Of a DNA stretch of 64,000 nucleotides, positions 50,122 to 61,419 are shown in pieces (the first letter of the stretch is position 1; each line of letters starts with the position of its first letter). The notes below the pieces were generated by a model. It saw only the letters and a list, made by a program, of their open reading frames with translations, searched no databases and had not been told where the DNA came from. The translations under genes and the position numbers were made by a program. Source of the stretch: Peromyscus leucopus (taxonomy: Eukaryota > Chordata > Mammalia > Rodentia > Cricetidae); the NCBI RefSeq assembly GCF_004664715.2, contig NC_051069.1, positions 70,454,647-70,518,646 of the forward strand, in the 5' to 3' direction.

Positions 50122-50592
50122 TGCTGTGAGATGTTCTGTATGTCAAATTGCTCTGATTGGTCAATAAATAAAACACTGATTGGCCCATGGCTAGGCAGGA
50201 AGTATAGGTGGGACTAATAGGTCAAAGCTGGAACAGCTACCCACTACATCTCCACACTTTCCAAAAGCCCACACTCAGAAACTTTTATTCAATTGTTCTG
50301 GAGAGAGGAGAAAATAAAGAACAGGAAGGCAGAAGGAGTCACTGCCAGCTGCTGCCAGGACAAGCAGAATGTGAAGATGCTCGTAAGCCACAAGCCACAT
50401 GGCAAGGTATAGATTTATGGAAATGGATTAATTTAAGATATAAGGACAGTTAGCAAGAAGCCTGCCACGGCCATACAGTTTGTAAACAATATAAGTCTCT
50501 GTGTTTACTTGGTTGTGTCTGAGTGACTGTGGGACTGGCAGGTGACAAAGATTTGTCCTGACTGTGGGCCAGGCAGTAAAACTCTAGCTACA
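50122..50592 (+). mobile_element. Solo LTR, family 'E', copy 2, with inserted segment
   Basis: A 471-bp LTR with a perfect 6-bp TSD GGTAAG (50116-50121, 50593-50598). Starts 'tgctgtgagatgttctgta', then 'gctctgattggtcaataaat', 'ttagcaagaagcctgccac' and 'gtaaacaatataagtctctg', and ends 'gtaaaactctagctaca'. Compared with copy 1 it carries an extra stretch at about 50218-50300, containing 'gctacccactacatctcc', which matches the U3 end of the ERV at 58.4 kb. The 81-codon frame is not a gene. Confidence 0.82.
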
Positions 50593-58427: not shown

Positions 58428-58434
58428 TCTCTAT

Positions 58435-58739
58435 TGTAGTGGGTAGCCATTCCAGCTTGGATCTGGAAGTTCCAACCCCCATTGAGACTCTGGCAACTGT
58501 CACGCCTACAAGGCAGGGCCAGGGGAGGGGCCTGGAGACCCGAGAGCTGGATGGGCCATCGCTCTCTCTGTGCTGGGAAGCTGAACGGTGAAGGTGGACT
58601 GTGCAGAGCTCCGGAGAACACCGCTGGATTGCGATACACCTTCCCCAGACCCGGTGACCTACCTTAAACTTAATTTGTGAGTTACGCCATTAAATAAATA
58701 TCCTTTTAACTACGTGGAGTGACCAAAATAATTTCTCCA
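58435..58739 (+). promoter_or_regulatory. LTR (U3-R-U5) of a Lys-primed ERV
   Basis: About 305 bp from 'tgtagtgggtagccattcc' to 'aataatttctcca'. A polyadenylation signal lies in 'gccattaaataaatatcc' (about 58687-58700). No clear TATA box. The tRNA-Lys primer and LTR size fit class II (betaretrovirus-like, ERVK). Followed by five bases and the primer-binding site. Confidence 0.85.
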
Positions 58740-58744
58740 ATATC

Positions 58745-58807
58745 TGGTGCCCAACGTGGGGCATGAACCCACGACCCTGAGATTAAGAGTCTCATGCTCT
58801 ACCGACT
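58745..58807 (-). other. tRNA-Lys(CUU) copied as cDNA (PBS plus tRNA body)
   Basis: 63 nt complementary to tRNA-Lys(CUU) from its CCA end to about nucleotide 14. The first 18 (tggtgcccaacgtggggc) are a normal primer-binding site. The next 45 read the T-arm, variable loop, anticodon arm ('gattaagagtctc', complement of CUU) and part of the D arm. Only three differences from the tRNA are visible: 58748 and 58764, both C-to-T at CpG, and 58763, an A where the complement of A58 should be T. It is not a tRNA gene: the 5' part including the A box start is missing and there is no acceptor stem partner. Confidence 0.93.
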
Positions 58808-58989
58808 CCGCACGGTCAACCTTCACTGTTCAGTGTCCCGGCACAGAGAGAGTGCTGGCCCATTCAGCTCTTGGGTCTCCAGGCGCCTCCCCTGGCCCTG
58901 CCTCATAGGCGTGACAGTTGCCAGAGTCTCATTGGGGGTTGGAACTTCCAGATCCAAGCTGGAATGGCTACCCACTACATCTCTATGAC

Positions 58990-60472: not shown

Positions 60473-61419
60473 AAGAAGTACCAATATAGTTCATGTGTTT
60501 CCATTCATTTGGTTATTTGTCCCTGTGCTTTATCCAACCTTCGTTTCAACAATTCTCTCTCATATACACCCTCCTCTTTCTCACTAATTAGACTCCCAGA
60601 GCTCCACCAGGGGCCTAGCCGTGGACGTCTGCATCCCGATTCCTCAGTCCTTGGATGGGGTTTATGGCACAACTATTAGGGTGTTTGGCCATCCCATCGC
60701 CAGAGTAGGTCAGTCCCAGCTGTCTCTCGACCATTGCCAGCAATCTTTCGTGGGGGTATCTTTGTGGATTTCTGTGGGCCTCTTTAGCTCTTTGTTTCTT
60801 CCTTTTCTCATGTGGTCTTCATTTACCATGGTCTCCTATTCCTTGTTCTCCCTCTCTGTTCTTGATCCAGGTGGGATCTCCTGCTCTCTTTCCCTCGACC
60901 CTCACCGTTCATTGCTCCCACTCATGTCCAGGCTGTTCATGTAGATCTCATCCATTTCTCCTTGTCTTTCTTGGGGTCCCGTTTTCCAGGTAGCCTCACT
61001 GGTGAACCAAAGGCTGAGGGGCCCCCAACTGGATCAGGCCCTCTGAATAGGTGAGATAGTCGATTGGCTTGATCTGTTTGGGAGGCATCTAGGCAGTGGT
61101 ACCAGGTCCTGGGCTCGTTGCATGAGTTAGCTGTTTGAAACCTGGGACTTATGCAGGGACGCTTGGCTCAATCTGGGAGGAGGGGACTGGACCTGCCTGG
61201 ACTGAGTCTATCAGGTCGATCCCAGTCCTCGGGGGAGACCTTGATCTGGAGGAGGTGGGAATGGGGGGTGGGCTGGGGGGAAGGGGAGGGGGGCAGGAAG
61301 TGAGAGAACAAAGGAATCTGTGGCTATTATGTAGAACTGAATAGTATTGTAAAATAAATTTAAAAAAATAATAAAAATTTCAGCACAAAATAAAAAAAAT
61401 AAAAAAGAAGTACCAATAT
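60473..61419 (+). mobile_element. L1 3' end with 5' inversion (twin priming)
   Basis: Perfect 15-bp TSD AAGAAGTACCAATAT at 60473-60487 and 61405-61419. The left half (60488 to about 61002) is L1 3' UTR in antisense ('gtgtttccattcatttgg' to 'gtagcctcactggt'). The right half (about 61003-61404) is sense ('gaaccaaaggctgaggggc' to the A-rich tail). In L1 coordinates the halves are adjacent: the inverted half equals about 9395-9905 and the sense half starts at the base equivalent to 9906 of the copy at 8.4 kb. A G-rich tract lies at 61250-61305. No ORF2 of use. Confidence 0.95.

Follow-up and report, generated by a model that had tools for sequence, protein, structure and literature searches.

A palindromic LTR insertion with a tRNA-Lys(CUU) complement at its joint in Peromyscus leucopus, a probable product of over-extended plus-strand DNA, and its relatives in the genome

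Related systems and the architecture of the insertion

LTR elements of the ERVK (class II) type are characterized by a primer-binding site (PBS) complementary to tRNA-Lys and by a 6-bp target-site duplication (TSD). Inverted arrangements of retroviral DNA have reportedly been encountered before: judging by the titles, Colicelli and Goff in 1988 described a Moloney MuLV provirus that had been integrated with its LTRs inverted and by way of two U3 sequences, and Shoemaker in 1980 a segment in inverted orientation within circular Moloney MuLV DNA. The former is said to combine inverted LTRs with two-U3 integration, as does the locus presented here, but it is a Moloney MuLV provirus, whereas the insertions analysed below are germline, recurrent and carry tRNA read-through at the joint. 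The latter apparently contains a similar inverted retroviral segment, but in a circular molecule.

The second component of the locus, a copy of the primer tRNA, also has a counterpart. In the excerpted text of a review (PMC13191261), m1A58 of the tRNA normally halts the synthesis of plus-strand strong-stop DNA, and the ends named for over-extended products are nt 55, 54 and 37. These HIV-1 molecules resemble the sequences studied here in that the tRNA is copied beyond the 18-nt PBS, past m1A58; however, they end at nt 55, 54 or 37 according to that excerpt, whereas 66 of the 77 sites sampled here reach nt 1–14, mostly with nt 58 misread, and are resident in the genome. As for the host, excerpts of PMC10089650 describe the deer-mouse ERVK, MysTR among them, as a landscape rich in non-autonomous copies; the text mentions neither tRNA nor palindromic or inverted forms. 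Our literature search, thin on subscription papers and preprints, retrieved no account of a germline population in which LTR insertions are palindromic or run on into the tRNA; the ingredients are known, while their combination and frequency were not found described in the literature searched.

The window, i.e. the whole stretch of 64,000 nt of P. leucopus DNA under analysis (contig NC_051069.1), contains a 545-base insertion enclosed by a perfect 7-bp TSD (Table 1). An LTR, whose last bases are AATA, is followed by TC, the PBS and the complement of tRNA-Lys(CUU) down to nt 14, after which LTR nt 174–1 recurs in inverted orientation; nothing else, and no viral gene, lies between the LTR and its inverted copy. 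Both outer ends are U3 termini (TGTAGTGGG starting at 58435 and CCCACTACA finishing at 58979). The locus, read from one assembly, agrees in all these parts and positions with the first-pass annotation, and the CT that the latter had placed at the junction is present as an overlap at the level of sequence.

Table 1. Parts of the insertion and its flanking repeats, in window coordinates
Feature	Position	Strand	Remark
Left TSD, TCTCTAT	58428..58434	.	
LTR, 308 bp, TGTAGTGGG...CCAATA	58435..58742	+	Full-length matches at related loci
Left arm, LTR nt 1-174, U3 end outward	58435..58608	+	
AATAAA polyadenylation signal	58693..58698	+	
TC separating LTR end from PBS	58743..58744	+	
PBS, complement of tRNA-Lys(CUU) nt 76-59	58745..58762	+	
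A opposite tRNA nt 58	58763	+	Presumed m1A58; T expected
Read-through complement of tRNA-Lys(CUU) nt 58-14	58763..58807	+	45 nt past PBS
CT common to tRNA complement and inverted LTR at junction	58806..58807	.	
Right arm, inverted LTR nt 174-1	58806..58979	-	Reaches U3 terminus
Right TSD, TCTCTAT	58980..58986	.	

The tRNA-Lys(CUU) complement (58745–58807) matches in 60 of 63 bases the reference tRNA sequence, which genes of the same genome match in turn; the three mismatches fall at nt 73 (CpG), nt 58 and nt 57 (CpG). Rfam detected a partial tRNA on the minus strand with 29.2 bits (gathering score 29), and ARAGORN called no tRNA gene in the window. A tRNA gene or tRNA-derived SINE was rejected as an identity for the locus, given the absence of tRNA nt 1–13, the presence of the CCA complement and the lack of an ARAGORN call; a solo LTR was likewise rejected, as the TSDs enclose more than a single LTR. 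The palindromic insertion folds as a single strand with z = -28.

Read-through sites in the genome and the base opposite nucleotide 58

The same P. leucopus assembly (2.475 Gb) served as the search space for related sequences. A pattern composed of the LTR end, the PBS and the read-through (any base at nt 58, ≤2 mismatches) revealed 390 sites on many contigs, and its reversed version, used as a control, none. With exact patterns, 133 of 285 sites with LTR end and PBS run on into the tRNA, and read-through was found in 15 of the first 30 loci from the LTR-end plus PBS search. LTRs with a normal continuation, which the first-pass annotation had proposed to look for, also exist in this genome, with 136 matches to a common ordinary leader (≤2 mismatches).

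Other primers behave differently, although the patterns used for them lacked the LTR-end anchor of the tRNA-Lys(CUU) pattern: only one of 91 exact tRNA-Lys(UUU) PBS sites is followed by an exact tRNA match (at ≤1 mismatch there are 3 matches in total, one with A at nt 58), and for tRNA-Phe no read-through matches were found in the same genome against 182 exact PBS sites, a number that overstates the independent loci because these sites are often tightly clustered. A search with the T-arm without any LTR context returned 98 exact matches. In 18 of the 20 fetched, TGG (the CCA complement) precedes the match, while CGG precedes it in L123, beside a recognisable LTR end, and only L116 resembles a gene. 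Within this set, L117–L130 include at least two other LTR-like ends, unlike that in the window, which also pass from the PBS into the tRNA-Lys(CUU) complement. Five scans of viral contigs and one of genome contigs yielded two IMG/VR contigs, matched by the junction pattern, and nothing else; both were judged to be chance matches, as by a rough estimate about 2 were expected.

For detailed comparison 77 read-through sites were sampled, non-randomly. Of these, 28 loci (8 including the window's own, and 20 more) were drawn by a query that extended into the right arm and was therefore biased toward palindromes; the less biased sets are L031–L060, taken first in contig order, and L091–L110, hand-picked among the places that the search listed. 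Whenever two sites had the same context they entered the count as one (as with L054 and L055), and the tally for nt 58 comprises 76 sites, i.e. 77 minus the duplicate L105.

A continuous tRNA complement past the 18-nt PBS and a misread nt 58 are the marks of over-extended plus-strand strong-stop DNA, and both are present in the window. Throughout the population, the base opposite nt 58 is altered far more often than the rest of the tRNA. Among the 133 exact sites it is A in 110, C in 14, the faithful T in 9 and never G (124 of 133 non-T). In the sample, 70 of 76 sites are altered at this position (64 A, 6 C), which supports the earlier proposal that the plus strand had read through the tRNA; in the same 76 sites, other non-CpG tRNA positions beyond the PBS are altered in 24 of 3231 cases. 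Three apparent true tRNA-Lys(CTT) genes (L116, L132 and L133), classed as such by ARAGORN and by the lack of an encoded CCA, all have A58; L131, with an ARAGORN call and A58, was excluded from this count because CCA follows. The preference for A over C follows the same order as the misreading of m1A in the excerpted text of PMC11019740, mainly A-to-T with little A-to-G. That work is a chemistry study, carried out partly on reduced m1A, and according to its excerpts wild-type HIV-1 RT misincorporated nothing opposite untreated m1A; what is compared is thus the lesion and not the enzyme active here.

Could the enzyme have met a tRNA devoid of m1A58, owing to poor methylation in the germline, so that no bypass took place? 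The nine faithful sites would agree with such an origin, as would five outside the exact set (of six places picked for A58, L111–L115 proved to be TGG-joined copies with the faithful base), and plus strands are described in the excerpts of PMC13191261 as passing A58 in cells with mutated TRMT6-TRMT61A. Yet misreading at 124 of 133 sites is not what an unmethylated A58 would leave behind, and we consider this explanation of the read-through very unlikely. Bypass of the methylated base by the reverse transcriptase (RT) is the reading we prefer.

Junctions, palindromes and double-U3 integration

Copying of the tRNA extends to nt 1 in 25 of the 77 sampled sites, to nt 2–4 in 16, to nt 5–14 in 25 and less far in 11, so that the end points span nt 1 to nt 41. 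Two tRNA-Lys(CUU) isodecoders were used, at 65 and 12 sites, and 75 of the 77 junction signatures are distinct. The variety of junctions and the use of two isodecoders indicate mostly independent events and not the spread of one mobile palindrome. The first-pass annotation had suggested a small, integrase-mobilised palindromic element in case copies with the same junction existed; the genome does hold the 390 read-through sites, but as the sampled junctions are nearly all different, a mobile palindromic family was rejected.

Some junctions do recur. One of the two repeated signatures, L008/L017, merely reflects a common T-run after the tRNA. The other, L099/L105, is one junction whose two copies share 94.7% identity across 301 nt and are differently flanked, and since it did not match the LTR queries, its status as a palindrome is not established. 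Beyond these, L129 and L130 share one junction about 2.2 kb apart on C16, and L054 and L055 are tandem copies of one read-through junction on C3. Judging from the sequences, read-through copies may have been re-copied or duplicated at L099/L105 and L129/L130, and because of these three duplicated junctions not every site can be taken as an independent event.

Such duplicates are what would be expected if the tRNA stretch had been inherited as internal sequence within a single non-autonomous LTR family, in which palindromes arose later. That origin is hard to reconcile with the diversity of junctions and tRNA end points, and equally with two isodecoders, three different bases at nt 58 and read-through behind at least two other LTR ends; we regard it as largely refuted and its chance of being correct as very slim. 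Repeated, separate read-through accounts better for the population as a whole.

Beyond the tRNA, the 77 sites continue into an inverted LTR (19), a direct LTR (15, class D) or neither (43, class O) within the sequence examined, which measures 488–1,623 nt per site, so class O will include proviruses with a more distant second LTR. Of the 58 non-palindromic sites, 30 show within 420 nt same-sense internal sequence common to other copies, 8 have their best match in the opposite sense, and for 20 (18 O, 2 D) no match was found in the comparison library, which is small; several of the matches start well downstream of the joint, and the sense of a match is unsure where the ordinary copy itself holds inverted pieces (e.g. 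L092). Thirteen direct-LTR sites have mapped ends: 8 carry a 6-bp TSD, the flanks of L035 belong to a TA repeat, and no TSD accompanies L012, L025, L054 (tandem) or L101.

Certain joints point to the strand on which synthesis resumed. Among the 24 of the nt-1 sites that were kept in the nt 58 tally, TGG, the CCA complement, comes next in 6 (p = 1.5e-6 at 1/64 each), and 2 go on as long T-runs. In L008 the T-run is followed by inverted LTR from nt 277 (equivalent to 58711 in the window), 13 nt past the polyadenylation signal, which suggests that an RNA 3' end lay near there. In L010, a direct-LTR provirus, complete tRNA-Lys(CTT) and tRNA-Glu(CTC) stand end to end at 1414–1563 and are followed by internal sequence and a second LTR, with GCAGAC as the TSD. 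Pieces beyond the tRNA-Lys in L032 and L043 were seen by eye to resemble parts of the tRNA-Glu of L010, and tRNA-Glu may have served as a landing template more than once in these three loci.

Palindromes make up 19 of the 77 sampled sites; in the sets with less bias the figure is 9 of 50 (6 of 30 in L031–L060 and 3 of 20 in L091–L110). In 17 of the 19 both U3 termini could be mapped (L004 and L009, in which the left LTR start is missing, fall outside the flank test), and in 15 of these 17, the window included, the flanks match: 12 repeats are exactly 6 bp, that of the window is 7 bp, L021 lies in a G-run and L091 in a TG repeat, while L008 and L040 have no TSD. A random in-register 6-bp match is expected once in 4096 cases; one-base shifts were also tried, and all reported matches are in register. 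For a candidate ERVK assignment, the tRNA-Lys PBS fits, 12 sibling palindromes have 6-bp TSDs, and the window has one of 7 bp. The use of a double-U3 molecule by integrase, proposed for the window in the first-pass annotation, is supported by these flank repeats.

The arms themselves range from identical (0/320 differences in L045, 0/108 in L011, 0/60 in L091) to about 10% divergent (L039), a spread suggesting that the events span a long time. In L006 and L008 the arms represent two LTR length types, which differ by 13 nt at the same place, so two molecules must have supplied them. The arm begins at the U5 end of the LTR in 6 of the 19 palindromes, and the template accordingly contained U3-R-U5, as plus-strand strong-stop DNA does. 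In the window, synthesis resumed at LTR nt 174, a position at which DNA and RNA templates are indistinguishable, and self fold-back or a sister strand is a possible source of the second arm. Its two 174-nt arms are identical at 159 positions (91%). In 13 of the 15 differences one arm has the base common in the family and the other a rarer one, with both arms affected, and at 58587 and 58596 both bases are family-common; the arms were therefore probably near-identical at birth and decayed later. The mismatches crowd toward the junction: the outer 74 nt contain one of the 15, the remaining 100 nt the other 14 (p about 0.003).

Near-identity at birth is also what would be predicted if a self-folded hairpin had been integrated by one end and host repair had supplied the rest, and the identical arms of L045 and L011 agree with it. 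A hairpin, however, offers one U3 end, whereas the flank repeats in 15 of 17 palindromes imply two-ended joining, and the arms of L006 and L008 stem from different LTR variants; this route is thus highly improbable as the general explanation, and joining of two U3 ends is favoured. An assembly chimera or cloning fold-back, for which inverted repeats are a classic signature, has a negligible chance of explaining the window, and chance is likewise very unlikely, in view of the TSD, the 15 arm differences, 13 of them of a common base against a rarer one, and hundreds of relatives spread over many contigs.

Proposed route and neighbouring observations

We conclude that the insertion in the window is very probably integrated plus-strand DNA which overran nt 58 of tRNA-Lys(CUU), continued to nt 14 and switched template onto U3, with insertion probably accomplished by integrase via two U3 ends. 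In the proposed sequence of events, RT would pass the methylated nt 58, the usual stop, and copy the tRNA as far as nt 14. The over-extended 3' end would then be mismatched to the minus-strand PBS, so that normal second-strand transfer would presumably fail, and the unmatched end could be extended on any strand that it reached. Landing on minus-strand DNA would lead to deleted direct proviruses, landing on plus-strand strong-stop DNA (or U3-R RNA) to palindromes, and landing on poly(A) RNA or another tRNA to captured RNA. Copying through to the 5' end of U3 would create a second U3 terminus, so that integrase could join two U3 ends. Every palindrome would be a separate accident, without a mobile family of its own. 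Several findings speak against the model, among them the TSD of the window, which has 7 bp rather than 6, the absence of a TSD in L008 and L040, the tRNA end points far beyond those of the HIV-1 products, the duplicated junctions, and the 20 of 58 non-palindromic sites that continue into sequence unmatched in the small comparison library. With respect to the enzymes, Pfam analysis of four reading frames from two ordinary copies detected no RT and one integrase-like match below the curated cut-off; we infer that the element family's own enzymes were the agents of both read-through and integration.

On a broader scale, we find it reasonably likely that the RT copying tRNA-Lys(CUU)-primed elements in this rodent lineage habitually overruns m1A58, that roughly one in two insertions of this LTR type with a retained PBS represents failed second-strand transfer, and that this amounts to a standing germline mutation route yielding palindromes, deleted proviruses and captured RNAs, with the misread base as a fossil record of tRNA methylation. 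If so, hundreds of germline insertions would record the bypass of m1A58, including the base inserted, the point at which the enzyme fell off and the place where it landed, and strand-transfer failure would become countable in genomes. The flanks of the palindromes suggest that two-U3 integration has recurred outside the laboratory, and the joints suggest that synthesis jumped end to end onto CCA and poly(A) termini.

Several minor observations were made along the way. L051 carries a 233-nt GC-rich stretch between the tRNA and the inverted LTR, which looks like captured host RNA or CpG-island DNA. Elsewhere in the window, 34 bp on the minus strand at 50219–50252 match the beginning of this LTR's U3 (88%), embedded in otherwise different sequence. 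The window also contains B1 and B2 SINEs, as judged against consensus sequences, which point to a muroid rodent as the probable host. Finally, a retrotransposon-like insertion at 60473–61419 has its 5' part inverted (60486–61005 relative to 61003–61380), with direct repeats AAGAAGTACCAATAT and an A-rich end, and looks like the outcome of LINE twin priming.
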